A stretch of DNA of 64,000 nt from the NCBI GenBank assembly GCA_036346225.1, contig JARFIW010000139.1, forward strand, positions 744,001-808,000. The letters are read 5' to 3'. Shown piece after piece: positions 798 to 64,000 of the stretch (its first letter is position 1; every line of letters starts with the position of its first letter). The DNA is from Platerodrilus igneus (Eukaryota > Arthropoda > Insecta > Coleoptera > Lycidae). Under the pieces are notes generated by a model that saw only the letters and a program-made list of their open reading frames with translations, ran no database searches and had not been told where the DNA came from. A program made the translations under genes and the position numbers.

Positions 798-865
798 ATC
801 TGTTTAGTCTTCGGCTAGTTACAACAGCTATAAAGTCTTTGACCAGTTTTTTAATTTCTTTATAG

Positions 866-3800: not shown

Positions 3801-4762
3801 CATTACGTCATACATTACAGAAACCTGCAGCAGGCGCTACGTAATGGTCTCCGGCTCACAGCAGTCCACCGGGTCATGGAATTTGACCAATCGCCTTGGT
3901 TAAAACCCTACATCGATTTGAACACCACCCTTAGGACATCTGCCAGAAATGCGTTTGAAAAAGACTTTTTCAAATTAATGAATAACGCAGTCTTTGGAAA
4001 AACGATGGAGAATGTCGACAAGAGGGTGGATGTAAAGATCGTGCCCCGGTGGGGACACGATGGACAAAAATTGTGCGCGAGTGGACTTATCGCCCGCCCG
4101 AACTTTAACAGTAGTTTAGTGCTAGGTGAGGATTTGGTTATTATACAGATGGATAGGGTAAAAGTCACTTACAACAAGCCTATATATGCAGGTTTTTCAG
4201 TTTTAGATATTTCAAAGACCCTCATGTATGATTTTCATTATAACACCATGAAACATTTGTATGGAGCCAAACTCTTACTACTTTATACAGACACTGACTC
4301 TTTAGTGTATAGTATAGAAACAAAAGACTTGTATAGTGATATTAGTGCAAACATTAACAATTTCGACACTAGTGACTACCCTCGAGACAATAAATACAAT
4401 ATGCCTCTTGTGAACAAAAAGATCCCCGGCAAGTTTAAAGACGAGTTCAACGGCGACTTGGTGTTACAATTTGTTGGGACTAGGGCCAAGTCGTATTGCA
4501 TTCTTAGTGAGAAGGACACGATTAAAAGATCAAGGGGGTATCTCGTAGTGTGGTGGCTGGGATTAGTGTGGATAGTTTTAAGAACGTTGTGCATAATAAT
4601 TCTTGTGCCCTTATGCATAGCATGGTATGTATTCGGAGTAAAAAACACGTTTTGTACACCCAATTAATTAATAAAATTAGTTTATCGGCAGAAGATGACA
4701 AAAGGTACGTCATCCCTGGTAGTACTTCCACATATGCATGGGGGCATAAGGATATTAGATAG
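866..4762 (+). pseudogene. Degraded C2H2 / endonuclease VII-like / family B DNA polymerase gene
   Basis: The translated pieces match the large arthropod proteins carrying DNA_pol_B_2 (organellar/viral family B polymerase), as found in Polinton/Maverick- and adintovirus-like elements. Order of parts: two C2H2 fingers (about 880-1050); two short in-phase introns at 1304-1353 and 1618-1663 with GT/AG ends; a conserved pre-polymerase segment (about 1690-2030); exonuclease motif YADFES (about 2305); a C-x2-C ... DHCHLTGK ... C endonuclease VII-like zinc motif (about 2600-2700); polymerase motif A DANNLYG (about 3528); motif B KLMNNAVFGKTMEN (about 3970); motif C YTDTDSL (about 4286). The reading frame is broken near 2030, 2100, 2570, 2885, several times between 3040 and 3120, near 3745 and near 4530, so no full polymerase can be made. 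No start codon lies in frame with the first finger; an ATG at 869 is one base out of frame. No capsid, integrase or terminal repeat is seen nearby, so membership of a complete Polinton is not shown. Confidence 0.9.
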
Positions 4763-9928: not shown

Positions 9929-10180
9929 GCTAAACAAACCACAACAAACATACAGGAGTATCTACTTGTATTATTTACCGTCAGAATAATTATTTCACAA
10001 AAAGTTAATTCAATTTGTTTGGCAAATTGTAATTTTTATGCGGTCATTTAACAATACCTCCGTGCCGACTGTTACTAAAAACCTACAATGTCAGGTGAAA
10101 CGACACTAAGACACAAGTTGTTAGCTGGTTGATGCTGTACTTCCATAAGATGTCTGTATTAAATATTACAACTTTGCTAC

Positions 10181-10225
10181 TCCTGTCTTGATGAGCCCCA
10201 ATTAGGGCGAAACGCGTCGACAGGA
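10181..10225 (+). ncRNA. Hammerhead ribozyme motif, copy 1 (core position 3 changed)
   Basis: Stem I pairs TCCTGTC (10181-10187) with GACAGGA (10219-10225), 7 bp perfect. Stem II pairs GCCC (10195-10198) with GGGC (10205-10208). GAA at 10209-10211 is followed by a minimal stem III A-C / G-T (10212-10213 with 10216-10217, loop GC) and C10218 as the cleavage residue. The core reads TTGATGA instead of CTGATGA, a C3-to-T change expected to impair catalysis. The very short stem III is typical of minimal type I hammerheads of retroelements. Confidence 0.85.
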
Positions 10226-10481
10226 TGCCTTCGTGGCTGAATTTGAGTCACTTGCCAATAATTTCTTTTTACTTTGTATTAATTTAAGACTCATTAAACC
10301 ACTTTTCGTTTAAATTAAAACTTTTGGCTATGGAAAAAGTCAGTTGAGCCGGATCTCCTCCGTGCCGACTGTTGCTAAAAACTTGCGATGTCAGGTGAAA
10401 CGACACTAAGACACAAGTTGTTAGCTGGGTGATGCTGTACGTCCCATAAGGTGTCTGTATTAAATATTACAACTTTGCTAC

Positions 10482-10526
10482 TCCTGTCCTGATGAGCCCC
10501 AATTAAGGCGAAACGCGTCGACAAAA
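10482..10526 (+). ncRNA. Hammerhead ribozyme motif, copy 2 (intact core)
   Basis: The core CTGATGA (10489-10495) and GAA (10510-10512) are canonical. Stem II is GCC/GGC (10496-10498 with 10507-10509) with an AT-rich loop. Stem III is the same two base pairs as copy 1, and C10519 is the predicted cleavage residue. Stem I pairs only 4 bp next to the core (TGTC with GACA), because the 3-prime strand has changed to GACAAAA. Copy 1 has the better stem and copy 2 the better core, consistent with an active ancestor. Confidence 0.85.
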
Positions 10527-10548
10527 TGCCCTCGTAGCTGTATTTGAT

Positions 10549-16986: not shown

Positions 16987-17890
16987 TTATTCATCTTGGG
17001 ACTGGTTGGATGCGTACCTCCATTGATTTCTATTTTGAGCTAGTCTACACATTTCTCTGAAATTCCTGCACCCTACATCTTTCACTATCTGTGTGCAGTA
17101 GTCAAACTTAGGCCTACTTCTACTTCTCTTTTTTCCTATCTCTGCTTCTAATATATTCCGCACTATTGCCTCATGCCGTAATATGTGGCCTATCATTCTA
17201 TATCTTATATTTTTACCGTTTTCCACATATTTCTTTCTTTCCCTACTATTTTTAGTACCTCTTCGTTCTTAACTTTGTCTGTCTATGATATCTTCATCAA
17301 ATACGTCTGTAGCACGACATTTCAAAGGCTTCTACCTTTTTCTTATCTGCTTTTCCTACTGTCCAGGCTTCACAGCCATACAGTGCTGTGTTCCACACAT
17401 ATGTTTTAAGCTATCTTTTCCTCGATTCACGAAAATGTGCTAATTTTTGTTTTATATCTTTTGTGCTTTTCCCATCTTGCGTTATTTGACTTCCTAGGTA
17501 GCAGAAATCCTTAACCTCTTGTAAGTACGTGTTACATATTTGTATTTTTGTTTTTGATTTATTTTTCCCTCCTTTGCATACTAGTACTTTAGTTTTATGC
17601 TTGTTAATTTTCATACAGTATCTTTCTGTTAGGACCGTTTCCATTTTATTAAGAGCAGCTTCTAACTCTTCCTTGCTAGATGCTAATACCGTTATATCAT
17701 CTGCAAATCTAAGCATATCAACTTTTTGTCCCTGCATAGTAATTTCAAACGTCTTCCTGCATTTGACAGTATTTATTGCCTCTTCAGTGTACAGGTTAAA
17801 AATGAATGATGATAGGGCAAATCCTCTCACCACTTTCCTAATGTTTACTTCTCTACGTTCCTGCTCTATTATTACTGCTGTTTGCTCTAT
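16987..17890 (-). pseudogene. RTE reverse transcriptase, distal half
   Basis: Encodes RT motif FNLYTEEAIN (block before the catalytic site), the catalytic motif LRFADDITVLA, then MKINKHKTKV and FCYLGSQIT, followed by a C-terminal segment (HILRHEAIVRNILEAE ... EMCRLAQNRNQWR) ending at 16987. The segment 17411-17833 is open for 140 codons; shifts separate it from the C-terminus. The domain continues upstream beyond the inserted transposon at 20480. Confidence 0.9.
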
Positions 17891-17893
17891 ATA

Positions 17894-20471
17894 TGAGCCG
17901 TTTATTTTGAAAGTGGCTTAAGTCCATTTTCATCTTTTATCAAGTTGGCACTTGTGACATTTATAATTTATGCTGAACTGTTAAAAAAATAAATCGGTAT
18001 TGAAATATACTTAGTACATTTGAAAATTTTATATCACGTACATTTTCAAAATAATATAAATACTGAAAATCCTAATTTTGAAAGTGACCTAAGTCCACTT
18101 TTTATTGACGATGTCAAAAAGTGCGGCCCAAAATGTTGAAAGCAGTGATGAAGGTAATTTAAATTACGTTTTGATATTAAATTGAAATTTAAAAAATAAT
18201 ATTTAATTTAAATAAATTATTAAACCCATGGGAAAGGATAAAATAACAAGATTTCTTGATTCTGAAAGTGAAGAGGAATTAAACTCATACAGCAGATTTA
18301 AAAAAAGAAGGAGAATTTTACAAGTTCATTCTTCAACAGAGGAAGAGGAAGTAATTGAGAATGAGAATTTACAAAACAGCACCTTCAAAGAAGGATTCAG
18401 AGAACACAAAAGTGGTACTTATATTCAGAAAATTCGTAAAATTAAACGGAATTCAGGGAAAAGATACGATACACAATCGGGAAAAATTATTCCTGCCAAA
18501 GTTTTTCAAAATGAAAATTGCCAATGCCGAAAAGACTGCTTGAAAAATTTAAATGAAAGAGAAAGAAAACGTATTTTCGAAATCTTTTGGAACTTAGGAG
18601 ACTTTAATAAGCAAAATATATTGCTATACGAAGCGACCGGACGCAGTGTTGTAAAAAAAAGACGTCAGAGAAACGGAAAAGGTTCATGTAGAAATGAGAG
18701 TTTTACGTATTGGTTAAATTCTAAAACAGGCAAAGTTGCTGTTTGTAAAAAATTCTTTTTAGATACTTTTCAAATAAGGACTATTGAAACGTGTATTAAA
18801 ATCTAAAAACGTTGGCAACGATTTACGTGGGCGTTTGCCTGGATCGTCGAGAAAAATATGTGATGAAGCAAATATGATTGTTCAAAACCATATTAACAGT
18901 TTCCCGAAATTTGAATCCCATTATACTAGGGACTATAATCCCGACAGAAAATATCTTCATCCTGAACTGACTATAAAAAAAATGTTTAATTTTTATGAGC
19001 TTCTCTGTGAAGAAAATAATTTAAAAGCAGTTAATGAATGGACTTATAGAAAAATATTCAAAAAGGATTTTAATCTACATTTCCACCAACCACGCAAAGA
19101 CACATGTCAAAGATGTGATCTAATAAACATTAAAGTCAAAGCATCAGAAAACCACGAAGAATAGAAAAAACTTATGGAAGAACATGATATTCATTTGAAG
19201 CTAGCAGAATCGGCTAGAAATGCGTTAAAACAAGATCAAGAGCGAGTATCAAGCAATCCATCTCGTTATTTTGGCTTTTCATTCGATTTGCAGAAAGCGT
19301 TACCATTCCCAAAGTTAACTACTTCAGTAGCTTATTATAAATGTAACATGTATATTTTAAATTTAGGCATACACAATTTCCACAACGATAATGTATACAT
19401 GTACGTTTGGGATGAAACAAAAGCTTCTAGAGGTTCCCAAGAAGTGGCTTCATGCCTCTTGAGACACCTAAAAACCCTGACGGGTGAAAACACATCATTG
19501 CATATAGTGACATGTGTGGAGGACAAAACAGAAACATCAAAATATCTTTAATGTGGTTAAAAATTCTATCGATGGGAAATGATGTGGAAATCATAGACCA
19601 CAAATTTTTAATATCAGGGCATTCATTTTTACCTAATGACATAGATTTTGGCGTTATAGAAATGTCGTTAAAAAGAAATCAGTTATTGTATGTGCCACAA
19701 GATTATTATAATATAATTAAAAAATGTAGAAAAGGTAATACTTTCATACTAAATGAAATGAAACAAGAGGATTTTATATCAACAAGACTTTTGAAAGAAG
19801 CAGTTTACAAAAGATCCAAAAATACCAACGGAGAAAAAATAAACTGGCTTCAAATATGCTGAATGCGATTTTTAAGAAATGAACCATATAAAATTTTATA
19901 CAAAACAACCATGGATGAGAACGCAGAATTTAAAATTCTTGATTTATTGCCACGTTGGAGTAGACCTAAAAAATTTGGGAATATTGTATTGCCATCGTTA
20001 TATAAAAGTATAAGAAGCATCACATCACTAAAATACCGACACATGATGGACTTATTGCGGTATATACCTCCGGAACACTATAACTACTTCAAATCACTTC
20101 CGCACACTGAGAATGTTAACGAATAACTTGTTACTAAATTTATTTCTATTATCTAAAAATATAATTTAAATGTTTTTTTTCTATTTTTTAAGCTATATGT
20201 AACGGACTTAAGCTCTTTCACTTTTTGTAACAAAACAAATTTTTATTTTGAAAGTGACCTAAGTCCTTTTAAGATAAGCAAGGTCATATTATACACTTAA
20301 TAATAGCGACTTTTTAATAGGATGTATAAAATTAAATCTCTTAAATGCGATTTAACATTGCAAGTCAACCATATATCTTACGTATATTTTTAATTTTGTA
20401 AAATCGCAAAACCTTAAGTATTTCAAATTAAAGATAAATGGACTTAAGTCACTTTCAAAATGAACGGCTCA
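17894..20471 (+). mobile_element. DUF7869-type DNA transposon with TIRs and TATA target duplication
   Basis: The element starts TGAGCCGTTTATTTTGAAAG at 17894, and its right end at 20471 is the inverted form (CACTTTCAAAATGAACGGCTCA complementing the start). The inverted repeats are about 38 bp with 2-3 mismatches. TATA flanks both ends (17890-17893 and 20472-20475), a 4-bp (or TA) target duplication. Removing it joins the two halves of the RTE reverse transcriptase. A further internal copy of the TTTTGAAAGTG-CTTAAGTCC block occurs near 18075-18100 and near 20247-20270, so subterminal repeats are present. It encodes the transposase at 18228-20126. Confidence 0.85.
18228..20126 (+). pseudogene. 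DUF7869-type DDE-like transposase (frameshifted)
   Basis: Pieces in order: acidic/basic N-terminus with a C-x-C-x3-C cluster (18228-18806); segment with RGRLPGSS and CQRCD zinc-like cysteines (18784-19164); FSFDLQKALPFPKLT, whose D is a candidate first catalytic acid, with WDETKASRGSQEVAS (19174-19551); a segment with CGGQNRN preceded by SD (second candidate acid) and GHSFLPNDIDFG (19512-19862); and a C-terminal part after a TGA at 19860-19862. This arrangement is that of the uncharacterised insect/hydra proteins with DUF7869, thought to be RNase H-fold transposases. Breaks: shift near 18790, stop at 19162-19164, shift near 19500, stop at 19860. Start chosen at the first ATG after the left subterminal repeats. 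Confidence 0.8.
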
Positions 20472-20479
20472 TATAAGCT

Positions 20480-22430
20480 ATGTGCTATTCGTCTATCTCT
20501 ATAATTCGTTCTAATTTTTTTGAGTATTTCAAACATTTTTTTTTCATTTTACATTGTCGAATGCTTTTTCCAGATCTACAAACCCTATATACACGCTTTA
20601 TCCTTTTTCAATCGTTTTCTCCATTATCACGCTCAGAGCTAAAATAGCCTCCCGCGTTCCCCTGTTTTGCCTAAACCCAAATTGATTTTCTACTAGTATT
20701 TCTTTAGCTCGTTCTTTCCATTCGTTTTTATGCAGTTCTAGTTAATATTTTTGATACGTGTGCTGTCAAACTTATTGTTCGAAAACCTATCCCAGCCTAT
20801 CTTTTTTGGTATAGTTACGATGATGTTGCGTTTGACATCTTTGGGTATCTCGCCTGTCTCATACATATTGCTTACAAATTGGAAGAGACGTTCTGTTACT
20901 GCTTGGCCAGCGGCTTTTAGAGTTTCTGCTTGCACCTTATCTGTAACCGACGCCTTACCATTTTTCAGACCCTTTAATGCTAATTCAAACTCATCCCTAG
21001 GTATAAGATATCTCAAGTCTTCATTTTCAATGTCTGATTCCTGCATATAAATTCCTATATATTCTTGCCACCTACCCACTTTCTCTACATTTTCTATAAT
21101 GAAGATTTATCCCGCGTCCCTATTATTTTTGCTATACAGTTTTATATCCATAAAATTCATTCTAATTAGTTTGTATGCTTCAACTGTCTTTCCTACTTCT
21201 ATCTTAGTTTGTACCTCTTTGCACTTTTTATCAATCCATTGTTCTTTAGCGTTCCTGCATTTGCGAATAATTTCCCATTTTATGGCTTTGTATCTCTGTT
21301 TTCCTGTTTCGTCTGATTTATTTTTGTTTTTTCGTCTTTCTTCTATTAAATTCAGGATATCCTTTGTTATCCGTGGTTCCTTATTTGCTTTTTGTGTATA
21401 TTCCAGAATATCTCTGGCCGCCATGTCTAAGCTGGGTTTAATGTTATTTCATTCCGTTTCTACTTCCTTAGTATAAGATATTTTCCTGATATCTTTCAGC
21501 AATTCATTTGACTTGTTTCGAATCTTTCTTGGATATCTTTATCTTTTAGTTTGTGTAAATCAAAGTGCCCTTTTCCGTTTCTTTTTTCAAATTTTTAAAT
21601 TTAAGTGCTCCCTTCATAATTACGATGTCTATATCTGCTTCTGGGCAGCTTCTACAGTCTTTTACTTGATTTCTAAACCGTTGTCTAACAAGAATGTAAT
21701 CTATTTGAATCTTCCTATACCTCCTGGAATCTTCCACGTGCATCGTCTTCTAGCAATATGTTGAAATAACGTTTGTGATGATAAAATTGTCGTTTCTCGT
21801 GCCTAAACCAAATAAACCAACTACCGCTCCATCCCTACCCTCATCTACCACTGTATTAAAATCCCCCGTAATTATTAACTTTTGATGTCCTTTTACGTAT
21901 CTTAATATGTCTTCGATATCTTTGTAGATGGCTTCCACCTCTTCGTCACTGTAGCTAGAGGTGGCCATGTATACTTGTATTATTACTGTGTTTATCGGTT
22001 TAGATTCTAATCTAACCATGAGTACTCTTTCGTTCTTTTGTAAGTAATTTTCTACATAGTTTCCTATCTTTTTCCGCATAACTATTCCCACACCCAAATT
22101 TCCTTCCTCTACTCCTGTATGAATTACCCTGAAGTCTCCACTCTAAAAATCCCACGCCTCTGGCCACCGAACTTCGCTGATCCCTACTATGTCTAGTGCT
22201 AACCTATTCATTTCGATTTTTAGGATTTCTAGCTTACCTAGTTGCTTCATGCTTCTCACATTCCACGCTCTTATTCTGAAGTTTCCGATCCCATCCTCCG
22301 AAGTAGTCCCCTCCCGGAGATCCGAATGGGGAACTATTTTAACTCCGGAATCTTTTACCCCAGAGAATGCCATCATTTTATTATAATTTAAGTACGCTGT
22401 GTACTTGGGAGGTAATTCCACCCCGCGGTA
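20480..22430 (-). pseudogene. RTE endonuclease and proximal reverse transcriptase
   Basis: From the 5-prime end: segment before the endonuclease (22421 on), AWNVRSMKQLGKLE and GISEVRWPE (endonuclease motifs), GDFNTVV with downstream RND, IDYILVRQRF (endonuclease end, 21743-21546), lysine-rich linker (21424-21107), then RT with IVTIPKK and, near 20560, FVDLEKAFDNV (catalytic motif A). Several single-base shifts and small deletions (for example between the RND motif and 21750) disrupt it. Same strand and family as the fragments at 15960-16780 and 63285-64000. Confidence 0.88.
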
Positions 22431-29479: not shown

Positions 29480-29482
<3 letters not shown>

Positions 29483-32400
29483 CAAATTTACGGACGTGAA
29501 ATTAATAAAGTAATGTTGATGGAAAATCGTTATGGGATAAAGGCGTCCGAATAAAATAAATTATTGAATAATCATTTATTGAACATCAACGTTTCGGATA
29601 ATATGAATCCTTAATCATGAGCTAAAAATTGCAATTAACAAAAACAGGAAAATAACATTATATACGGTACTTACTTTCAATGTGATTAATAACACTAATT
29701 CATAACAAACATTGACTAGAATATTAAAGTGTCAGTTTGACAGATAAAACATCAAGTAGTGTTTTAAATAAGGATAGACAAATGATTGATTTGGATAGCC
29801 AAATGATTGATTTGAAAAGTCACAAAATTGAAATATAACTACCCAATAAAAAGAGTGCAATGTATCGATCTACTAAAAATTAATCTGTTGCATATGTTTC
29901 ATGTTGTAGTTAAAATATCTAAAAGCAAAAGCAAACAACTCTAAAAATTCAAAACTATTAGGAATATTGATAACTATTGTATGGTGTGAAAAGGATTGAA
30001 AGGGTGTGTAGAACAAGAAAAGAATTTTTTTTTTTTTTTATAAAAATAGAAAATAATAAATAAATAAATAAACTGTTAGGAATTATTATTATTTATAGAA
30101 AATAAAAGAGAATAAACTGCACTTAGATGCTGAGTGTCTGATTTTCCATTAAGGCCATTAGTTTGTTGTTGGATATGTAACGCTTCAAGAAATAAACGAT
30201 TTTGTATTTAGGTTCCATTTCTAGGATTTTTGTGTCGGTGTAATTCGGTATATGATTCGTATTATTTACATGCTCTGCTAAGGTGCAGGTGGTCTTTGTA
30301 ACTTGGCATCACTTTTGTGTTGGGTGATGCGATTTTTAAGCCATTGACTAGTGTGGCCCACATAAGTGGCACTGCAACTACAAGTAATTTTGTATACTAC
30401 ATTACTCAGTGACATTTTATTGGTTGGGTCTTTAAGTTTAGTAAACAAAGAATTAAGCAAATTATTATATCGAAAAGATATTGTAGAAAAGGGTTAGCAA
30501 GAATTTTTTGAGTGTGGGTGTTAGATTCTTAATAAACGGAAGTGATTTATATATTTTATTTTTGTTGTTTTGGGAGTGTTGTAATAGAGGTGGTATTAAA
30601 TAGAAGTTTTTGATCAAAATGGTGGGATAAGCATTGTTAATGAGAATTTCTTGAAGGAGACAGAGATTTTGTTTAAAAATTGCGGTTCACAAATTTTACT
30701 GATCCGGGTTTTTAGAGCCAAAATCATATTTACTTTATGTTGAAAGGTGTGCTGTGAATAATAATTGATATACCTTCCTGAATGGGTAGGTTTAGTATAC
30801 CAATCAAAAATGAGGAGATTGTCTGGATTGCGTATCACAAGGGTATCTAAAATGGTAAGCAACCGTCAATTTCAATTTCATATGTGAACTGTAGATCAAC
30901 ATCAAAACTATTAAAAATTATTAGGGTATCATCAATTTTGTCAATGGGAATGGCACATATGATATCATCAACATATTTGGCGAGGAATGGAATTTTGAAC
31001 GGGAGTAATTCTGTAGTGTGTTCTAATAAAAAATCCATCGTAATCTGAGCTAGTACAGGTGATAAAGGTGAACCCATCGGTGTACCAAATATTTGATTAT
31101 AAACTTGATTTTGAAAAGTGAAGTTAGTGTTATTGAAGATTAAATGTATAGATGCTATGAATAAATCAAGAGGAACTTACAATGTGGTTGTATCAAGTCC
31201 CACTTTTCAGTGATAACTTGTATTACGAGATCTTTGGAAATGTTAGTAAAAAGTGATGTGACATCTAAAGAAATTAAAATGTAATTATGTGGTAACTGAA
31301 AATTACGAAAAGTGTTGACAAAGGAAAAAGTATCTGGGACATTAAAACCGTATTGTAATGGAAAAGCATTAGACAATATCTGTGATAAAAATTTTGAAAA
31401 TTTGTATGTTGGGGTGTTAATTGATGAAATGATAGGACGTAAAGTAAGCAAAGGTTTATGAATTTTTGGGAGTCCATAGTATCTACCTGGAACGGAATTA
31501 GTAGTTAATAACATCTTCTTTTCTATATCACTAATAATACCCTTATTATGTAAAAACTTTATATGGTCATTGACTTTCTTTTGAACAGTAAAAGTAGGAT
31601 CTCTAGGTAGTTTTGGTATATGTTATTATCATTGAGTAATTCATTAGATTTGTTAATGTAATCTGATTTATTCATAATAACAGTTGTTGAGCCTTTGTCA
31701 GCATTCGTAACTATAATTTGTGGATGTTTTTTCAAAAAAGTTTTAGTGAAAGAATAATCAGACTGAAAATGATCATTGTGTGCTGAATTAGTAGGTTTTA
31801 AAATGTAATTAGTAATAATGTTAGTTGCTTTTGCTCTCAAGACATTAGTTTTTCTGTAGAAAATGCTTACTATCTAAAATTAATTCAATATCCGCTAACA
31901 ATTTACCTATGTTAAGATTATTACTGTTACATGCTATATTAAATTGAGGACCTAAGGATAAAATATTACTAACCTTCTTGGGAATATCACAATTACTAAC
32001 ATTAACAAACCATTTACTATTATCAGTAAACATTTTATTGTCGTAAAATTGATGGTTAACTAAGTTAGTAAACTTTTAATATTAACTTTCTTAATTTGTC
32101 TATATCGTTTATTATAAAAGTGGTCTGTCTAACTTGAAATTGTATTAAACAGGAAAGAGGTATAATCTTACTTGCGTCACTTTTAATTTGTGTGAGTTGT
32201 TTATGACTAAAACTAATTTGGTGGTGTAATTTCGATTTCTAAGGTTAGTAATTTCTTTTCGAAAATATTTTAAAATTCATGACACGGTTGTTAACTCTAA
32301 AATTTCTACACTCTAATAAACTTACATAATTTAGTGTTATATGTTATGTGCGAAGGAACGATTGAATATCTTCTGCAACGTTCTAAGAAAAGCTTCCTGT

Positions 32401-32510
32401 TTTCTAAATTGGCGAGTTTTGTAGTTGTTGTGGCCCACCTCTTGAGTAATTGCATTGCTTGTTCACCATATTTTTCTGTATGTAATTATAAAATCCCATG
32501 TTTTATTTTA
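29480..32510 (-). mobile_element. Penelope-like element copy A, near full length
   Basis: Minus-strand PLE. From low to high coordinates: terminal repeat (29480-29620), 3-prime UTR (to about 30125), GIY-YIG endonuclease (30130-30460), reverse transcriptase (30614-31514), N-terminal region (31559-32100 and beyond), 5-prime leader (to 32510). The terminal repeat recurs at 32511-32640, where it also serves copy B, so A and B are tandem and share one repeat. About 3 kb long and inverted relative to copy E. Confidence 0.92.
30130..32280 (-). pseudogene. PLE reverse transcriptase-GIY-YIG protein (copy A, broken)
   Basis: Contains the PLE ADKGSTTVIM motif (about 31690), YGLPKIHKP (about 31460), SLDVTSLF (catalytic motif A, about 31240), GTPMGSPLSPVLAQ (motif B, about 31060) and KYVDDIICAI (YVDD catalytic site, about 30970). 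The C-terminal GIY-YIG domain has VVYKITCSCSATYVGHTSQ at about 30400. Breaks near 30480, 30850, 31150, 31540 and 31850 are mostly one- or two-base changes in A/T runs. It keeps the homopolymer length that copy E lost at the YGLPKIHK site. Confidence 0.9.
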
Positions 32511-33748
32511 TCAAAATCAAATTTACGGACGTGAAATTAATAAAGTAATGTTGATGGAAAATCGTTATGGGATAAAGGCGTCCGAATAAAATAAATTATT
32601 GAATAATCATTTATTGAACATCAACGTTTCGGATAATATGAATCCTTAATCATGAGCTAAAATTGCAATTAACAAAACAGGAAAATAACATTATATACGG
32701 TACAAATTTCAATGTGATTAATAACACTAATTCATAAAAACATTGACTAGAATATTAAAGTGTCAGTTTGACAGATAAAACATCAAGTAGTGTTTTAAAT
32801 AAGGATAGACAAATGATTGATTTGGATAGCCAAATGATTGATTTGAAAAGTCACAAAATTAAAATATAACTACCCAATTAAAAGAGTGCAATGTAAGTTA
32901 TCACAAAATAGCTGTTGCATATGTTTCATGTTGTAGTTAAAATATCTAAAATCAAAGCAAACATTTAAAATTCAAAACTATTAGGAATATTGATAACTAT
33001 TGTATGGTGTGAAAAGGATTTGGAACGATGGGAACAACTAAAACTTTTTTTTTTTATTAAATAGAAAATTAATAAATAAATAAATAAACTGTTAGGAATT
33101 ATTATTATTTATGAACAAAATGAATAAACTGCACTTAGATGCTGAGTGTCTGATTTTCCATTAAGGCCATTAGTTTGTTGTTGGATATGTAACGCTTCAA
33201 GAAATAAACGATTTTTGTATTTAGGTTCTATTTCTAGGATTTTGTGTCGGTGTAATTCGGTATATGATTCGTATTATTTACATGCTCTGCTAAGGTGCAG
33301 GTGGTCTTTTGTAACTTGGCATCACTTTTGTGTTGGGTGATGCGATTTTAACCATTGACTAGTGTGGCCCACATAAGTGGCACTGCAATCTAAAGTAATT
33401 TTGTATACTACATTACTCAGTGACATTTTATTGGTTGGGTCTTTAAGTTTAGTAAACAAAGAATTAAGCAAATTATTATATCGAAAAGATATTGTAGAAA
33501 AGGGGTTAGCAAGAATTTTTTGAGTGTGGGTGTTAGATTCTTAATAAACGGAAGTGATTTATATATTTTATTTTTGTTGTTTTGGGAGTGTTGTAATAGA
33601 GGTGGTATTAAATAGAAGTTTTTGATCAAAATGGTGGGATAAGCATTGTTAATGAGAATTTCTTGAAGGAGACAGAGATTTATGTTTAAAATTGCGGTTC
33701 ACAAATTTTACTGATCCGGGTTTTAGAGCCAAAATCATATTTACTTTT
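32511..33748 (-). mobile_element. Penelope-like element copy B, 3-prime part
   Basis: Terminal repeat (32511-32640), 3-prime UTR and GIY-YIG region in the same orientation as copy A. It breaks off near 33748 inside the region just after the RT domain. Compared with copy A it has many one-base losses in homopolymers (for example CATAAAAACATTG near 32735 against CATAACAAACATTG). Confidence 0.88.
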
Positions 33749-33865
33749 ACTGTTAAAAAAAGATGAACCCATGATTACCAAATATTTGATTATAATTGAT
33801 TTTGAAAAGAAGATGTTTATAAGATAAATGTAGGTGCATAATATCCCAAGAATAAAACCTTGTTA
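33749..33865. other. Scrambled junction between PLE copies B and C
   Basis: A short mosaic of PLE-derived pieces (ACCAAATATTTGATTATAA from near RT motif B, then AAAAGAAGATGTT from the pre-RT region) and unmatched bases, where orientation switches from minus to plus. Confidence 0.6.
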
Positions 33866-35185
33866 CTTTACGTCCTATCATTTCATCAATTAACACCCCA
33901 ACATACAAATTTTCAAAATTTTATCACAGATATTGTCTAATGCTTTTCCATTACAATACGGTTTTAATGTCCCAGATACTTTTTCCTTTGTCAACACTTT
34001 TCGTAATTTTCAGTTACCACATAATTAATTTTAATTTCTTTAGATGTCACATCACATTTACTAACATTTCCAAAGATCTCGTAATACAAGTTATCACTGA
34101 AAAGTGGGACTTGATACAACCACATTGTAAGTTCTCTTGATTTATTCATAGCATCTATACATTTAATCTTCAATAACACTAACTTCACTTTTCAAAATCA
34201 AGTTTATAATCAAATATTTGGTACACCGATGGGTTCCTTTATCACCTGTACTAGCTCAGATTACGATGGATTTTTGTAGAACACTACAGAATTACTCCGT
34301 TCAAAATTCCATTCCTCGCCAAATATGTTGATGATATCATTGTGCCATTCCCATTGACAAAATTGATGATACCTAATAATTTTTAATAGTTTTGATGTTG
34401 ATCTACAGTTACATATGAAATTGAAATTGACGGTTGCTTACCATTTTAGATACCCTTGTGATACGCAATCCAGACAATCTCCTCTTTTGATTGGTATACT
34501 AAACCTACCCATTCAGGAAGGTATATCAATTATTATTCACAGCACACCTTTCAACATAAAGTAAATATGATTTTGGCTCTAAAACCCGGATCAGTAAAAT
34601 TTGTGAACCGCAAATTTTAAACAAAATCTCTGTCTCCTTCAAGAAATTCTCATTAACAATGCTTATCCCACCATTTTGATCAAAAACTTCTATTTAATAC
34701 CACCTCTATTACAACACTCCCAAAACAACAAAATAAAATATATAAATCACTTCCGTTTATTAAGAATCTAACACCCACACTCAAAAAATTCTTGCTAACC
34801 TTTTCTACAATATCTTTTCGATATAATAATTTGCTTAATTCTTTGTTTACTAAACTTAAAGACCCAACCAATAAAATGTCACTGAGTAATGTAGTATACA
34901 AAATTATCTAAAATAGTTGCAGTGCCACTTATGGGCCACACTGTAAGGCTTAAAATCGCATCACCCAACACAAAAGTGATGCTAGTTACAAAGACCACCT
35001 GCACCTTAGCAGAGCATGTAAATAATACGAATCATATACCGAATTACACCGACACAAAAATCCTAGAAATGGAACCTAAATACCAAAATCGTTTATTTCT
35101 TGAAGCGTTACATATCCAACAACAAACTAATGGCCTTAATGGAAAATCAGACACTCAGCATCTAAGTGCAGTTTATTCTCATTTA
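33866..35185 (+). mobile_element. Penelope-like element copy C, RT to C-terminus
   Basis: Plus-strand PLE from just after the YGLPK motif to the end of the GIY-YIG coding sequence, ending at CAGTTTATTCTC. It carries a very high density of one- to three-base deletions relative to copies A and E, including inside the YVDD region (about 34320-34345). Not translatable as one protein; the last 89 codons (34922-35191) are open. Confidence 0.88.
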
Positions 35186-36954
35186 TGTTGATGGAAAATC
35201 GTAATGGAATAAAGCTCCAATAAATAAATTATTGAATAATCATTTATTGAACATCAACGTTTCGGATAATATGAATCCTTAATCATGAGCTAAATTGCAA
35301 TTAACAAAACAGGAAAATAACATTATATACGGTACTTACTTTCAATGTGATTAATAACACTAATTCATAAAAACATTGACTAGAATATTAAAGTGTCAGT
35401 TTGACAGATAAAACATCAAGTAGTGTTTTAAATAAGGATAGACAAATGATTGATTTGGATAGCCAAATGATTGATTTGAAAAGTCACAAAATTAAAATAT
35501 AACTACCCAATAAAAAGAGTGCAATGTATCGATCTACTAAAATTAATCTGTTGCATATGTTTCATGTTGTAGTTAAAATATCTAAAAGCAAAAGCAAACA
35601 ACTCTAAAAATTCAAAACTATTAGGAATATTGATAACTATTGTATGGTGTGAAAAGGATTGAAAGGTGTGTAGAACAAGAAAAGAATTTTTTTTTATTTA
35701 TAAAAATAGAAAAATAATAAATAAATAAATAAACTGTTAGGAATATTATTATTTATAGAAAATAAAGAGAATAAACTGCACTTAGATGCTGAGTGTCTGA
35801 TTTTCCATTAAGGCCATTAGTTTGTTGTTGGATATGTAACGCTTCAAGAAATAAACGATTTTTGTATTTAGGTTCTATTTCTAGGATTTTGTGTCGGTGT
35901 AATTCGGTATATGATTCGTATTATTTACATGCTCTGCTAAGGTGCAGGTGGTCTTTTGTAACTTGGCATCACTTTTGTGTTGGGTGATGCGATTTTAACC
36001 ATTGACTAGTGTGGCCCACATAAGTGGCACTGCAACTACTAAGTAATTTTGTATACTACATTACTCAGTGACATTTTATTGGTTGGGTCTTTAAGTTTAG
36101 TGCGGTTCACAAATTTTACTGATCCGGGTTTTAGAGCCAAAATCATATTTACTTTATGTTGAAAGGTGTGTGGAATAATAATTGATATACCTTCCTGAAT
36201 GGGTAGGTTTAGTATACCAATCAAAATGAGGAGATTGTCTGGATTGCGTATCACAAGGGTATCTAAAATGGTAAGCAACCGTCAATTTCAATTTCATATG
36301 TGAACTGTAGATCAACATCAAAACTATTAAAAATTATTAGGGTATCATCAATTTTGTCAATGGAATGGCACATATGATATCATCAACATATTTGGCGAGG
36401 AATGGAATTTTGAACGGAGTAATTCTGTAGTGTGTTCTAATAAAAATCCATCGTAATCTGAGCTAGTACAGGTGATAAAGGTGAACCCATCGGTGTACCA
36501 AATATTTGATTATAAACTTGATTTTGAAAAGTGAAGTTAGTGTTATTGAAGATTAAATGTATAGATGCTATGAATAAATCAAGAGGAACTTACAATGTGG
36601 TTGTATCAAGTCCCACTTTTCAGTGATAACTTGTATTACGAGATCTTTGGAAATGTTAGTAAAAAGTGATGTGACATCTAAAGAAATTAAAATGTAATTA
36701 TGTGGTAACTGAAAATTACGAAAAGTGTTGACAAAGGAAAAAGTATCTGGGACATTAAAACCGTATTGTAATGGAAAAGCATTAGACAATATCTGTGATA
36801 AAAATTTTGAAAATTTGTATGTTGGGGTGTTAATTGATGAAATGATAGGACGTAAAGTAAGCGAAGGTTTATGAATTTTTGGGAGTCCATAGTATCTACC
36901 TGGAACGGAATTAGTAGTTAATAACATCTTCTTTTCTATATCACTAATAATACC
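35186..36954 (-). mobile_element. Penelope-like element copy D, internally deleted
   Basis: Minus-strand copy: terminal repeat (35186-35310), 3-prime UTR, GIY-YIG, then a deletion of about 240 bp near 36101 (GTTTAGTG joined to CGGTTCAC) and the RT to the pre-RT segment, ending at TAATACCCG. The 139-codon frame at 36568-36987 covers YGLPKIHKPS to the motif A region. It abuts the GAAACGTTGATG of copy E. Confidence 0.88.
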
Positions 36955-37130
36955 CGAAACGTTGATGTTCAATAAATGATTATTCAATAATTTATTTTAT
37001 TCGGACGCCTTTATCCCATAACGATTTTCCATCAACATTACTTTATTAATTTCACGTCCGTAAATTTGATTTTTATAAAATAAAACATGGGATTTTATAA
37101 TTACATACAGAAAAATATGGTGAACAAGCA

Positions 37131-39128
37131 ATGCAATTACTCAAGAGGTGGGCCACAACAACTACAAAACTCGCCAATTTAGAAAACAGGAAGCTTTTCT
37201 TAGAACGTTGCAGAAGATATTCAATCGTTCCTTCGCACATAACATATAACACTAAATCTATTGTAAGTTTATTAGAGTGTAGAAATTTTAGAGTTAACAA
37301 CCGTGTCATGAATTTTAAAAATATTTTCGAAAAGAAATTACTAACCTTAGAAATCGAAATTACACACACCAAATTAGTTTTTAGTCATAAACAACTCACA
37401 CAAATTAAAAGTGACGCAAGTAAGATTATACCTCTTTCCTGTTTAATACAATTTCAAGTTAGACAGACCACTTTTTATAATAAACGATATAGACAAATTA
37501 AGAAAGTTAATATTAAAAAGTTTACTAACTTAGTTAACCATCAATTTTACGACAATAAAATGTTTACTGATAATAGTAAATGGTTTGTTAATGTTAGTAA
37601 TTGTGATATTCCCAAGAAGGTTAGTAATATTTTATCCTTAGGTCCTCAATTTAATATAGCATGTAACAGTAATAATCTTAACATAGGTAAATTGTTAGCG
37701 GATATTGAATTAATTTTAGATAGTAAGCATTTTCTACAGAAAAAACTAATGTCTTGAGAGCAAAAGCAACTAACATTATTACTAATTACATTTTAAAACC
37801 TACTAATTCAGCACACAATGATCATTTTCAGTCTGATTATTCTTTCACTAAAACTTTTTTGAAAAAACATCCACAAATTATAGTTACGAATGCTGACAAA
37901 GGCTCAACAACTGTTATTATGAATAAATCAGATTACATTAACAAATCTAATGAATTACTCAATGATAATAACATATACCAAAAACTACCTAGAGATCCTA
38001 CTTTTACTGTTCAAAAGAAAGTCAATGACCATATAAAGTTTTTACATAATAAGGGTATTATTAGTGATATAGAAAAGAAGATGTTATTAACTACTAATTC
38101 CGTTCCAGGTAGATACTATGGACTCCCAAAATTCATAAACCTTTGCTTACTTTACGTCCTATCATTTCATCAATTAACACCCCAACATACAAATTTTCAA
38201 AATTTTTATCACAGATATTGTCTAATGCTTTTCCATTACAATACGGTTTTAATGTCCCAGATACTTTTTCCTTTGTCAACACTTTTCGTAATTTTCAGTT
38301 ACCACATAATTACATTTTAATTTCTTTAGATGTCACATCACTTTTTACTAACATTTCCAAAGATCTCGTAATACAAGTTATCACTGAAAAGTGGGACTTG
38401 ATACAACCACATTGTAAGTTCCCTCTTGATTTATTCATAGCATCTATACATTTAATCTTCAATAACACTAACTTCACTTTTCAAAATCAAGTTTATAATC
38501 AAATATTTGGTACACCGATGGGTTCACCTTTATCACCTGTACTAGCTCAGATTACGATGGATTTTTTATTAGAACACACTACAGAATTACTCCCGTTCAA
38601 AATTCCATTCCTCGCCAAATATGTTGATGATATCATATGTGCCATTCCCATTGACAAAATTGATGATACCCTAATAATTTTTAATAGTTTTGATGTTGAT
38701 CTACAGTTCACATATGAAATTGAAATTGACGGTTGCTTACCATTTTTAGATACCCTTGTGATACGCAATCCAGACAATCTCCTCATTTTGATTGGTATAC
38801 TAAACCTACCCATTCAGGAAGGTATATCAATTATTATTCACAGCACACCTTTCAACATAAAGTAAATATGATTTTGGCTCTAAAACCCGGATCAGTAAAA
38901 TTTGTGAACCGCAATTTTAAACAAAATCTCTGTCTCCTTCAAGAAATTCTCATTAACAATGCTTATCCCACCATTTTGATCAAAAACTTCTATTTAATAC
39001 CACCTCTATTACAACACTCCCAAAACAACAAAAATAAAATATATAAATCACTTCCGTTTATTAAGAATCTAACACCCACACTCAAAAAATTCTTGCTAAC
39101 CCTTTTCTACAATATCTTTTCGATATAA
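37131..39128 (+). pseudogene. PLE reverse transcriptase (copy E, frameshifted)
   Basis: An N-terminal basic region (37131-37757) is followed by ADKGSTTVIM (about 37890), YGLPK (about 38120), SLDVTSLF (about 38325), IFGTPMGSPLSP (about 38505), KYVDDIICAI (about 38620) and GCLPFLDTLVIR (about 38730): the RT of Penelope-like elements, which copies RNA into DNA at the target. Frames change near 37745 (A run), 38131 (A run), 38785 (T run) and 39115 (T run), all at homopolymers. Few other defects, so this is the best-preserved copy. Neighbouring copy A differs in length at several of these runs. Confidence 0.92.
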
Positions 39129-39132
39129 TAAT

Positions 39133-39519
39133 TTGCTTAATTCTTTGTTTACTAAACTTAAAGACCCAACCAATAAAATGTCACTGAGTAATGTAGTATA
39201 CAAAATTACTTGTAGTTGCAGTGCCACTTATGTGGGCCACACTAGTCAATGGCTTAAAAATCGCATCACCCAACACAAAAGTGATGCCAAGTTACAAAAG
39301 ACCACCTGCACCTTAGCAGAGCATGTAAATAATACGAATCATATACCGAATTACACCGACACAAAAATCCTAGAAATGGAACCTAAATACAAAAATCGTT
39401 TATTTCTTGAAGCGTTACATATCCAACAACAAACTAATGGCCTTAATGGAAAATCAGACACTCAGCATCTAAGTGCAGTTTATTCTCTTTTATTTTCTAT
39501 AAATAATAATAATTCCTAA
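39133..39519 (+). CDS. PLE GIY-YIG endonuclease domain (copy E)
   Basis: 128 codons open to a stop at 39517-39519. VVYKITCSCSATYVGHT is the GIY-YIG core with the CxC zinc ligands characteristic of PLEs. RITQH supplies the conserved arginine/histidine. CTLAEHVNNTNH supplies further C/H ligands, and LFLEALHI contains the catalytic glutamate. The domain nicks target DNA for insertion. It is the C-terminal part of the RT protein separated by one frameshift near 39115, so the ATG at 39133 is probably not a true start. Confidence 0.88.
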   Translation: MLNSLFTKLKDPTNKMSLSNVVYKITCSCSATYVGHTSQWLKNRITQHKSDAKLQKTTCTLAEHVNNTNHIPNYTDTKILEMEPKYKNRLFLEALHIQQQTNGLNGKSDTQHLSAVYSLLFSINNNNS

Positions 39520-39969
39520 CAGTTTATTTATTTATTTATTATTTTTCTATTTTAAAAAAAAAAAAAAAATTCTTTTCTTGTTCTACACACCCTTTCAATC
39601 CTTTTCACACCATACAATAGTTATCAATATTCCTAATAATTTTGAATTTTTAGAGTTGTTTGCTTTTGCCTTTTAGATATTTTAACTACAACATGAAACA
39701 TATGCAACAGATTAATTTTTAGTAGATCGATACATTGCACTCTTTTTATTGGGTAGTTATATTTTAATTTTGTGACTTTTCAAATCAATCATTTGGCTAT
39801 CCAAATCAATCATTTGTCTATCCTTATTTAAAACACTACTTGATGTCTTATCTGTCAAACTGACACTTTAATATTCTAGTCAATGTTTGTTATGAATTAG
39901 TGTTATTAATCACATTGAAAGTAAGTACCGTATATAATGTTATTTTCCTGTTTTTGTTAATTGCAATTT

Positions 39970-40083
39970 TTAGCTCATGATTAAGGATTCATATTATCCG
40001 AAACGTTGATGTTCAATAAACGATTATTCAATAATTTATTTTATTCGGACGCCTTTATCCCATAACGATTTTCCATCAACATT

Positions 40084-40087
<4 letters not shown>
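39970..40087 (+). other. PLE terminal repeat with degenerate hammerhead-like fold
   Basis: GCTCATGATTAAGGAT, a short loop, ATCC and GAAACGTTGATG reproduce the stem II and GAAA half of PLE hammerheads, but the core reads CTCATGA instead of CTGATGA, and no convincing stem I forms. The same sequence with the same change is present in copies A, B and D. The rest of the repeat (TTATTTTATTCGGACGCC and CATCAACATTAC) recurs at 36975-37045 and, inverted, at 29510-29590, 32540-32620 and 35190-35250. Confidence 0.6.

Positions 40088-40120
<33 letters not shown>
40088..40120. repeat. (TA)n microsatellite 4, right border of the PLE cluster
   Basis: About 16 AT units between the PLE end CATTACTTTAT and TTGCTATGATTAAAC. 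Confidence 0.95.
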
Positions 40121-49400: not shown

Positions 49401-50980
49401 TGTCGAACTTTCCTTAAGTTTAGACGGTTCCATTGTTTTGTTTGAAAAAGTTTTATTGCATAGGAAGACACGTGACTTGCTTTCGTTTCAATATTCCGTA
49501 ACTTCCTGTCATAAGAAACGCCCCTGACTGTACCTGCTAATTAAACCTATCAATCTATTTCTTTAAAGCGCATTCTAAAACGCTGGAAATAAATGCTTAT
49601 TCAACATCCTGTATATTTTAATTTGTACAACTATTATTTTGTGAATATAAACATTGCTCTTATAATAGAACAACGTGGCTCTCAGAAATATTTTTCTAGC
49701 AAATACATTGGATTTTCTACAATTGGTAATTTCTAAAGAATGCATTCGTTTTATTTTTAAACCGGAATATGAGTTTGAATAACATAAGATTTCTTCAAAA
49801 GTACTTAATAAGCGCAATTGTAGTTAAATTTGTCAGTTTGGATATCTAACAACGACATTTGAAAGTGTTTTGGTAACACATGTTAATAAAATATGGGAAT
49901 TACTTTTCTTTTCGTGGTTCGGAATTTCATTCATTTTCAATCCTGCCTACGGCGGTGAAATACACACCCTCTATAGAGTTATCACCGTTTTTTAAGAGTA
50001 AGGAACCAATTTTGCGGTTTCACAAACAAGGAGATGTTGGTGGATCCATTAGTAAGTCCTGGAGCATTGATTCATACAAGCGGGGTTTTCTTCTTTCGCT
50101 CTTCGGCATAGTCTAATCTGTCCTTAATCACAGGCCCCTTTGAATCTTTACCGTAACCACTAAAAAGCTTCTTACTGCCGGCCAAAATGATTCTGCTAAA
50201 GGAATTTTTGTCGTGTTTGACACGATAGATGTAGCTAAAATTATGGAAACGTGTAATGCGGAGAGACAATTCCGGTTTGCAATTAGTAAACCCGGGTTGA
50301 TGAGGCTTGTCGCAGTTGCTGTGAAAATTTTGCCTGCTCCTGTTCGTGTATCTGCTATTGGGAAGGAAGTAAATCGGATTGCAGCAGATGTTCTACCCGT
50401 TTCTATACCTTAGTGTACTGCTGTTGGAAAAGAAGCAAGTCGTAACGCGGCTGAAAGACTCCTTTAGGTTCTTTTTTATTTTTGATTGTAGCAATTAAGT
50501 TTAACCACTACCGCTTATGGGTTTTTTTCTCTTATGCGACCTGTTTCAGACACACTACTACCACGCTTGTCGGCGGCCGGAGTGCATTCCGACAGTAATT
50601 ATGAAAATCACCAAGTAATTTATTTTCAATTTACTCACAAACGGTTACATGGCTGTTGTAATATGTTTTTTTATTGTGTGTAATACTGGAAAAAACCCTT
50701 CGGGCTAATTTGTCTTATATGAATCAACATTTTCGTCGGGGGTTGATTGTTTGGATTTTCGTTATTTTATTTGTTTATATCAAATGTTTCTCTTGTACAA
50801 ATTATAGCTTTTAAATAAAATGTATACCCCGATGCCGCCTACTTTTTTTTTAAGTAAGAAAGTATGGCACACCCTGACTCACCTTACTCTCTGCTTTTGT
50901 ACCTGGCCCGGTTTATCTACATTTCATTTACTGTTTTTTTATATATGTCTTTCCCTCTTTCCAACGTAACACCATAGCCT
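46415..50980. other. 4.5 kb without recognised genes
   Basis: Many short frames on both strands (longest 85 codons, 47973-48230 minus) lack recognisable domains. Short CCTGT-containing motifs like those in the (TA)n-associated elements (AACACCCTGTTT at 48249, CAACATCCTGTATA at 49606) suggest old element borders. No RNA gene seen. Confidence 0.45.
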
Positions 50981-50984
50981 TATA

Positions 50985-51075
50985 TTTTCCATCTTTCAAT
51001 TAATAGCTTGATTTGAAATGAATATTTGGGTTTAGCATAAAGGTCTAAGTTATTATTTCATCTAATTGACTATAA
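50985..51075 (+). repeat. Dispersed 90-bp repeat, copy 1 (partner 60213-60303)
   Basis: CTTATATTTTCCATCTTTCA followed by TGAAATGAATATTTGGG and GTCTAAGTTATTATTTCATC recurs at 60213-60303 with about 10 differences. Both copies precede AT microsatellite sequence. Confidence 0.8.
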
Positions 51076-51314
51076 TACCTTATATATACATATATATATA
51101 CATATATATAAATCTCAAAGGCCCAACGTACTTTTATAGTCATTTTTAAAATTTATTATGTAGTTTCGGTTCAATTCTGTACTTCCACACTTTAGTAGTG
51201 TTGGTGTTTTATCACCTGATGGCGGTTTTATTTACTTTTGCCATAGTACAGTGATTGTTTCGAAATTATATCATTATAATAGCTTCGATTACTTTATAGG
51301 GTTCTTGGGAACAG

Positions 51315-51358
51315 TCCACTCTGATGAGGCTAACAAGCCGAAACCATTGGTCAGTGGA
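51315..51358 (+). ncRNA. Complete type I hammerhead ribozyme
   Basis: Stem I: TCCACT (51315-51320) with AGTGGA (51353-51358), 6 bp perfect. Core CTGATGA (51321-51327). Stem II: GGCT (51328-51331) with AGCC (51336-51339), loop AACA. GAA (51340-51342). Stem III: ACC (51343-51345) with GGT (51349-51351), loop ATT. C51352 is the cleavage residue, so self-cleavage is predicted between 51352 and 51353. Every conserved core base is present and all three stems pair without mismatch. Both ends lie in stem I, hence type I. Such ribozymes are carried by Penelope-like elements, retrozymes and some satellite DNAs; no coding part of such an element is adjacent. Confidence 0.92.
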
Positions 51359-51482
51359 TGTTTCCTCCCCTATGAATTAATAAAGCTAATGTTTTGTTAA
51401 TGGCTATATAACTACCAGCCCGATTTGTATTTGTCAATGGCTCTTATTATTTTCATAAGAGTTTGTTTACAGATACATCTTA

Positions 51483-51484
<2 letters not shown>

Positions 51485-51519
<35 letters not shown>
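51485..51519. repeat. (TA)n microsatellite 7
   Basis: About 17 TA units followed by TTGTAGTGGTTTT. Confidence 0.95.
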
Positions 51520-60106: not shown

Positions 60107-60212
60107 AGCAAAGTGATTTATTAAATTGAAAAATATGACTGTTCTCTCAATATCCACATTAAAATAATATTTCACACAGTCGATATAGGGTTCAAGTCTT
60201 GTCCAAGACCTT

Positions 60213-60303
60213 ATATTTTCCATCTTTCAATCACTAGCTCGGTTTGAAATGATTATTTGGGCTTTGTATAAAAGTCTAAGTTATTATTTCATCTTATTCA
60301 CTG
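60213..60303 (+). repeat. Dispersed 90-bp repeat, copy 2
   Basis: Partner of 50985-51075. The hammerhead found about 240 bp downstream of copy 1 has no counterpart here, because a (TA)n tract follows at 60351. Confidence 0.8.
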
Positions 60304-60348
60304 TAACACGATAGTATTTATCAACTTACCTTGTGTAAAAACTACCTA

Positions 60349-63123: not shown

Positions 63124-63270
63124 GGTCGACTAATCGAATATTCGATTATTCAAATATTCGATTAATCGATTATTCGAGTATTCGATTAATCGAATAATCG
63201 ATTTGTTAATTTTTAAAAACTGCGATTTTCGATTAATCGAGTAATCGAATAATCGATCAATCGAATATTA
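63124..63270. repeat. Array of TCGATTAATCGA / ATTCGAATAT-like palindromes
   Basis: At least ten overlapping copies of TTCGATTA, TAATCGAA or ATCGAT in both orientations, including TTCGATTAATCGA three times, around a short unrelated core (about 63206-63228). The block can form alternative hairpins and abuts the truncated end of an RTE copy. Confidence 0.85.
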
Positions 63271-63284: not shown

Positions 63285-64000
63285 ATCTACTCCTAGTATT
63301 TCGTTAGCTCGTTTTTTCATCACTCCATTGTTCTTTAATTTTCCAGCATTTGCAAATAATTTCCCATTTTATGGCTTTGTATCTCTGTCTTCCTGCTTCA
63401 GAATATCCTATGTTACCAATAGTTTCTTTTTTTTGTTTATACCCCAGAATACTTCTGGCCACAATGCCTAAGCTGGATTTAATGGTATTCCAGTCTGTTT
63501 CTACCTCCTTAGTATCAAAGATTTTCCAGATGTATTTCAGCAATGCATTTAATTTTTTCTTAAATCTTTTGTGAATGTTCTTATCTTTTAGTCTCTCAAA
63601 GTCAGAGTGCTCTTTTTCTATTCTTTTCTTAAAATTTTTAATTTTAAGCGCAACTTTCATTATCACTATGTTGAGGTCAGTGTCTATATCTGCTTCTGGG
63701 TAGCTTCTACAGTCTTTTACCTGAGTCATAAACCGTTGTCTAACAAGAATGTAATCCATTTGATATCTAATCTCTCCTGGCATCTTCGACGTGTAGTCTT
63801 CTTGTATGATGTCGAAATAATGTGTTTGTAATGGTTATTAAATTGATTCTGTCGCAAAATTCTACCAGCCTATTTCTCCTGTCGTTCCTCGAGCATAAAC
63901 CAAATAAACCTACTACCGCTCCTTCCCTACCCTCATCTATCACCTGTATGCACATACATACAATTTTCTAGACTTATCTGGCAACAAATCACAACTAGTA
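63285..64000 (-). mobile_element. RTE retrotransposon fragment, copy 4 (runs off the window)
   Basis: The minus strand encodes the endonuclease end (MDYILVRQRF near 63750, KDCRSYPEADID), the lysine-rich linker (63304-63783, 159 codons open) and, upstream, EGREGAVVGLFGL with CDRINLI (63767-63955). It is close in sequence to the main RTE at 16781-22600 and better preserved here: the region lost from that copy between 21743 and 21790 is present. After the linker it jumps to a short piece matching about 20690-20725, so the RT is deleted. Confidence 0.88.

Follow-up and report, generated by a model that had tools for sequence, protein, structure and literature searches.

The segment at positions 51114-51484 of the window, by which we mean the whole 64,000-nucleotide stretch of Platerodrilus igneus DNA that was analysed, is probably a single DNA copy of a non-coding, strongly self-paired, retrozyme-like hammerhead RNA unit of approximately 370 bases that lies between TA tracts. 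The ribozyme is a type I hammerhead at 51315-51358 of the + strand and, as predicted by folding, forms one arm of a self-contained RNA domain between the two TA-rich tracts, a feature that is new here. Among the papers listed in literature searches, none describes hammerhead elements in beetles, to judge from titles and the openings of abstracts.

The hammerhead motif and its competing folds

The + strand at 51315-51358 reads TCCACT-CTGATGA-GGCT-AACA-AGCC-GAA-ACC-ATT-GGT-C-AGTGGA, which is a type I hammerhead with a complete core and an open-ended helix I. The 5' strand of helix I (TCCACT, 51315-51320) forms 6 bp with the 3' strand (AGTGGA, 51353-51358) and is followed by the catalytic core CTGATGA (51321-51327), which we take to be C3 to A9 in hammerhead numbering. 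Helix II (GGCT/AGCC, 51328-51339) contains 4 bp and an AACA loop, the core GAA (51340-51342) presumably corresponds to G12, A13 and A14, and helix III (ACC/GGT, 51343-51351) encloses an ATT loop, with which it forms a near-palindrome (8 of 9 positions). The core elements CUGANGA and GAA and an H at the cut site are all present, and the 13 pairs of the three helices (6, 4 and 3 bp) are without exception Watson-Crick, in agreement with the sequence-only reading, which had described a full set of core bases and three perfect stems of these lengths. The same reading had placed the cut between 51352 and 51353, a predicted position that fits cleavage after C17, the cleavage-site C being 51352; cutting at this point would follow from the motif and the known chemistry of hammerheads.

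The 6 bp that had been assigned to helix I are correct but understate its length, as folding extends the helix over 51293-51376. Beyond a bulged G (51314) there are 7 further pairs (GGGAACA/TGTTTCC, 51307-51313 with 51359-51365), and a 5x2 internal loop separates these from 9 outer pairs (TTTATAGGG/CCCTATGAA, 51293-51301 with 51368-51376). The hairpin 51290-51380 has a folding energy of -34.3 kcal/mol (z -3.8), which none of 200 shuffles equals. The bulged G stands 6 bp out in helix I and the AACA loop caps helix II, the two sites between which a type I hammerhead would make a tertiary contact, a kind of contact that the folding score leaves aside. A descriptor scan of both strands of the window for an intact core and minimum helix lengths of 4, 3 and 1 pairs yields motifs at two places, 51315-51358 and 10489, to which a motif at 10188 is added when one mismatch is permitted in the core or in GAA.

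At the gathering score, the Rfam scan of the window gives 0 matches. The sequence-only reading had held that the lack of a covariance match above threshold would refute the ribozyme, and formally the scan does so; the refutation is a weak one, because none of three well-formed hammerheads from viral contigs (L001-L003; helices of 6, 4-5 and 5-6 bp) reaches the gathering score either, and because the RAGATH-1 model (RF03152), which scores 15.7 bits in one permissive scan, aligns the 51315-51358 motif in the correct layout at 19.4 bits in another. The best match of the permissive scan is Hammerhead_3 (RF00008), with 22.0 bits against a threshold of 48.5 (23.5 bits in a 46-base segment), and its alignment adopts a type III layout that mismatches the real helices of the motif. 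The Rfam gathering score is a detection threshold rather than a defining property of hammerheads. The viral-contig hammerheads were found by the helix I pattern CCACT-CTGATGA ... CAGTGG and were used only as controls for folding and for Rfam; exact relatives of a 24-25 base stretch of the motif number 0 in prokaryote genome contigs and in viral contigs.

In the energy model, an inactive fold is favored over the active secondary structure by 3.4 kcal/mol (3.8 kcal/mol in the automatic comparison). CTGATG (51321-51326) pairs with CATTGG (51345-51350) in this alternative, and the predicted lowest-energy fold of 51315-51358 thereby hides the catalytic core, whereas the active fold is the predicted minimum in all three viral-contig controls, which exhibit no such competition. 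The preference for the inactive fold does not show inactivity, since the model ignores the non-canonical pairs of the core and the loop contacts, and the hidden core would fit either a circle that conceals its ribozyme or decay. The near-palindrome of helix III and its loop indicates that dimerization could also give rise to a hammerhead made of two strands, a form that has been described for repeat-type hammerheads (PMC3088659).

The RNA domain and the flanking TA tracts

The domain that contains the ribozyme comprises 371 bases (51114-51484, + strand). Its predicted fold has three branches, at 51158-51271, at 51280-51388 with the ribozyme at the tip, and at 51426-51477, and the first two are closed by the pairing of 51120-51152 with 51391-51420. 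The folding energy is -112.9 kcal/mol compared with a shuffle mean of -72.7 kcal/mol (z -8.6), and 0 of 200 shuffles are equally stable; the same count is obtained when the ribozyme hairpin 51290-51379 is held fixed and the rest is shuffled (z -7.2). The circular fold of the domain has a z of -7.9. When the domain is folded within an 801-base context, approximately 124.5 expected pairs fall inside it and 1.0 across its borders. The opposite strand also exceeds its shuffles (z -4.0, 0 of 200 equally stable).

Among 40 + strand pieces of the same size from the window, the only comparable z (-7.0) belongs to a piece that overlaps the domain, and the next is -2.6. Folding in 120-base windows gives a z of -4.8 for 51260-51379 of the + strand. 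When excess energy is used to rank 300-nt pieces (510 in total, from 255 positions on both strands), the + strand piece at 51264, which takes in the right TA tract, comes third, behind the two strands of a simple inverted microsatellite at 63014. On both strands, an array of TCGATTAA/TCGATTAT-type units at 63126-63269 forms a strong inverted repeat. The borders 51114 and 51484 were chosen with the TA tracts in view, and TA tracts are able to pair with each other; when start and end are varied over a grid of 64 cells with 20 shuffles per cell, the top four (z -9.8 to -10.3) take in one TA tract or both, and 51160-51390, which ranks fifth (z -9.8), lies clear of the two.

The domain has a GC content of 0.34, and the longest listed ORF wholly inside it spans 49 aa. 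No second copy of the domain is found within the window, no second hammerhead or tandem unit is found at 51114-51484, and the domain has no similarity to the 301-bp tandem hammerhead repeat at 10.1-10.5 kb. A candidate homology with what follows the (TA)n at 60393, prompted by a block common to 50978-51078 and 60209-60309 and by one common 12-mer, was rejected, as its score was equaled or exceeded in 281 of 300 shuffles. Among 274 other window pieces (both strands) compared with the domain, the best score is 323, under the shuffle maximum of 339 of the 60393 pair.

The left tract is TA-rich and consists of TATATATACATA units (51081-51110), and the right tract is (TA)17.5 (51485-51519). No other two of the 11 TA-rich tracts defined lie so close together (374 bp, the next being 1602), and random placement would bracket the hairpin this tightly with a probability of 0.001, in a test made after the tracts had been seen. 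The sequence CTTATATATA at 51079-51088 occurs again at 51483-51492 and is a possible target-site duplication, weak in that it is TA-rich. No clean target-site duplication emerges from the exact repeats of at least 9 bases, which are only CTTATATATA and TTTAAGTAA (50849 and 51630), both of low complexity. The block to the left (50978-51078) is 87% identical to 60209-60309, shortly after which a (TA)n tract also follows, and the left flank, being a repeat, differs from the left half expected of a TA palindrome or an empty TA site. Similarity to the right flank is found on the minus strand at 57370-57298, a place at which TTCACAGCAA lies across the (TA)n. The left border of the unit is uncertain because its left flank is a repeat and the sequence that matches its right flank has TTCACAGCAA on the opposite side.

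Pure (TA)n tracts are present at eleven positions of the window (25148, 27139, 29449, 40088, 41954, 43947, 51485, 53555, 55193, 57350 and 60351), several of them inside CACAGCAA(TA)nTTGCTGTG-like palindromes and often spaced by approximately 2 kb. Such tracts mark the ends of a repeat of approximately 2.3 kb at about 27.1-29.4 kb and, on the minus strand, 57.3-59.6 kb, to which 51.6-52.2 kb exhibits partial similarity.

Coding context and other elements of the window

The sequence-only reading had seen no coding element beside the hammerhead, and the scans bear this out: no stop-to-stop ORF of at least 110 aa lies between 39519 and 55817, and no Pfam family is detected at E<=0.01 in any of the 12 six-frame pieces of 40-64 kb. 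As a positive control, the Penelope-like element (PLE) of the window returned RVT_1 and a sub-threshold GIY-YIG in one forward frame, with no match in the remaining two. No reverse transcriptase with GIY-YIG is found beside the hammerhead, and the PLE ends at approximately 40.1 kb, 11 kb away.

The region 29480-40088 is a rearranged cluster of PLE copies in both orientations. A TA tract borders this block on each side, beyond the tracts stand the palindrome halves ATCACAGCAA and TTGCTATGATT, and to judge from the sequence the cluster is arranged as if inserted in one TA microsatellite. The claim that the PLE terminal repeats carry only a degenerate motif agrees with what is seen by eye at 39974-40003, where CTCATGA, an extra TTAA, GGAT/ATCC and GAAA are recognized, G5 being replaced by C and helix II being preceded by four additional bases. 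A protein search with the PLE reverse transcriptase gave 872 matches; among the 120 listed, the named ones are insects, and the best named is from Coccinella septempunctata (48%). For the frame 37101-37757, the search gave no match at E<=0.001.

At 10057-10547, a unit that contains a type I hammerhead occurs in two copies, which are 301 bp apart and have 92% identity over 191 bases. Their Rfam Hammerhead_1 scores are 29.3 and 24.5 bits, compared with a cutoff of 34, and both hammerheads are decayed, the first copy having T for C3 and the second weakened helices. The motif at 10489 is without a stable active monomer fold (0.0 versus -6.7) and has a competing fold as at 51315-51358; the motif of this unit has 0 exact relatives in viral contigs. 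A possible 8-bp duplication, TGGCAAAT, is located at 10020 and 10548. In its layout, this unit looks more like a retrozyme than does the one at 51114-51484. The 301-nt tandem unit is not unusually self-paired (circular z -1.3), and self-pairing is therefore no sure mark of a retrozyme.

Other parts of the window also contain long frames. The region 808-4667 has several, which we take to resemble a disrupted DNA polymerase of the B family, such as a Polinton or a virus-like element would carry, together with a sub-threshold C2H2 zinc-finger match (24.0 bits versus 25.2). By eye, frames at 17411-22142 and 63304-63834 are like proteins of non-LTR retrotransposons, and 21225-21856 is 70% identical to 63314-63949. 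Long frames are present at 18216-19862; that at 18216-18806 has 10 protein matches, the best of which is 89% to a protein of Psylliodes chrysocephalus, presumably a flea beetle. This frame probably encodes a mobile-element protein, since further relatives are found in another insect and in other sources. Its best match and the insect matches of the PLE reverse transcriptase agree with an insect origin of the window.

Origin of the unit and comparison with known systems

The sequence-only reading had left three options for the ribozyme, namely a small retrozyme-type element, a different PLE family and a solitary functional ribozyme. The first has the best support, since the domain of 371 bases in which the ribozyme is embedded is non-coding, low in GC, strongly self-paired and bounded by TA tracts; the size of 371, the GC of 0.34 and the self-pairing match the description of metazoan retrozymes. 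Against it count the non-tandem layout, the absence of a further copy in the window, of an Rfam match at the gathering score and of a clean target-site duplication, the preferred inactive fold, which could equally mean decay, and the opposite strand, which beats its own shuffles as well. The unit is called retrozyme-like rather than a retrozyme because a tandem copy is absent and because multiple genomic copies, clean insertion ends and a circular RNA are putative.

To our knowledge, the copying enzyme of animal retrozymes is not settled. In the model for these elements, the unit is released, closed into a circle and returned to DNA by a reverse transcriptase (PMC7229834, PMC7761336). By analogy, the transcript of the 51114-51484 unit would fold during its synthesis, the hammerhead would cut after C51352 through attack by the neighboring 2'-OH, and the ends of the released unit would be joined into a circle. 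Once the circle is closed, pairing with the loop III side may conceal the core and so guard the circle against self-cleavage, and the circle would be converted to DNA by a reverse transcriptase acting in trans, perhaps from a PLE such as that of the window.

A more specific version of the retrozyme-like reading is possible, although we hold it only tentatively and consider it rather doubtful: the locus may be a monomeric DNA copy of an insect viroid-like circular RNA of approximately 370 nt, whose hammerhead, at the tip of an unusually long helix I, is inactivated in the closed circle through pairing of its core with the loop III side. In this version, the PLE machinery that placed the autonomous PLE of the window in one TA microsatellite would have inserted the unit into another. 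If so, the unit would be a non-autonomous partner whose choice of target betrays its enzyme. The presence of a TA-flanked unit and a TA-flanked PLE in one window offers a direct test of the copying enzyme, in that the PLE would be the likely enzyme if copies of the unit and of the PLE in the genome have TA-tract targets and short terminal signals in common.

Of the explanations that do without a retrozyme, the one that survives best, although we consider it unlikely, is a hammerhead that the host has retained or put to use within an intron or an untranslated region, where it would cut or delay a pre-mRNA, like the hammerheads of vertebrate RECK and C10orf118. The solitary ribozyme of the sequence-only reading thus retains a small share of the probability. 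The single copy in the window without a tandem unit and the intact core are in keeping with it, and intronic hammerheads conserved in mammals and birds have been published (PMC3088659, PMC6155905), whereas repeats occupy both flanks of the locus, and neither the Pfam search (0 domains in 12 of 12 pieces) nor the ORF search (39.5-55.8 kb) points to a gene, an argument that is weak in that introns can be long.

Next in rank, and also improbable, is a fold-back DNA repeat, i.e., a long imperfect palindrome, an arm of which holds or once captured the hammerhead and which has no present RNA function. The self-complementarity of the DNA on both strands, the repeat in the left flank block and the preferred inactive fold could all be explained in this manner. 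However, the hammerhead strand is clearly the more stable of the two (z -8.6 versus -4.0), with 17 G-T pairs among the 127 of its fold, and all of its core bases are intact, whereas the two hammerheads at 10 kb are decayed.

An origin from another Penelope-like family, of whose terminal repeat the hammerhead would be a relic, is considerably less probable still. PLEs do carry type I hammerheads (PMC7761336), and the one PLE of the window lies between TA tracts, as does the hammerhead unit; however, the domain has no similarity to this PLE at E<=0.01, the motif of the PLE itself is degenerate by eye, and the helix III and very long helix I observed here differ from the minimal PLE hammerheads, which are described as being without helix III (PMC6155905, PMC7761336). 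The suggestion of a different PLE family therefore finds no support.

The chance level was obtained from 20 Mb of order-3 Markov sequence trained on the window (one strand, G-U allowed), which contained 0 motifs with helices of at least 5/4/3 and 3 motifs with at least 4/3/3. In a conditional simulation with natural loop limits, 5.3e-7 perfect 6/4/3 motifs are expected per window and 0.008 per Gb on both strands, and these values decrease to 1.5e-9 and 2e-5 when the 7-bp extension is included. Even in a large genome, these expected counts for the 13-bp motif, with and without its extension, make a chance match a very unlikely explanation, the lack of an Rfam match at the gathering score being the point in its favor.

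The retrozyme-like unit is closest in description to the non-LTR retrozymes of metazoans. In animal genomes, the majority of classical type I hammerheads reportedly belong to small retrozymes, which are tandem repeats of 150-450 bp with a GC content under 50% whose circles of approximately 170-400 nt are highly self-paired (PMC7229834). These elements coexist with PLEs, and insects are named in a list of the animal groups in which they are reported. The locus resembles them in its type I hammerhead, its non-coding sequence of that size range, its GC content and its strong self-pairing, and differs from them, as far as they are described there, in that it is single and non-tandem, has TA tracts in place of a clear target-site duplication and has a very long helix I (PMC7229834). 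An extended stem I, putative in those cases, is a feature in common with pDo500 of Dolichopoda and with amphibian satellite hammerheads, which, compared by description, lie in satellite DNA (463-505 bp for pDo500), whereas the locus has no array (PMC2837043).

The hammerheads of PLEs are also of type I and in a retroelement setting, and a PLE is located 11 kb from the locus; those described are minimal forms without helix III in the repeats of the element (PMC6155905, PMC7761336), whereas the locus has a helix III of 3 bp and no reverse transcriptase is found beside it in 40-64 kb. With the intronic hammerheads of vertebrates it has in common a single, dispersed hammerhead (PMC3088659); unlike them, it has no host gene detected in the Pfam and ORF scans. 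The phage-type hammerheads L001-L003 have the same CCACT-CTGATGA ... CAGTGG at helix I, the pattern by which they were found, and differ in a helix III of 5-6 bp and in an active fold that is the predicted minimum. The features that distinguish the unit at 51114-51484 are its unusually long helix I, its monomeric layout and its TA flanks.
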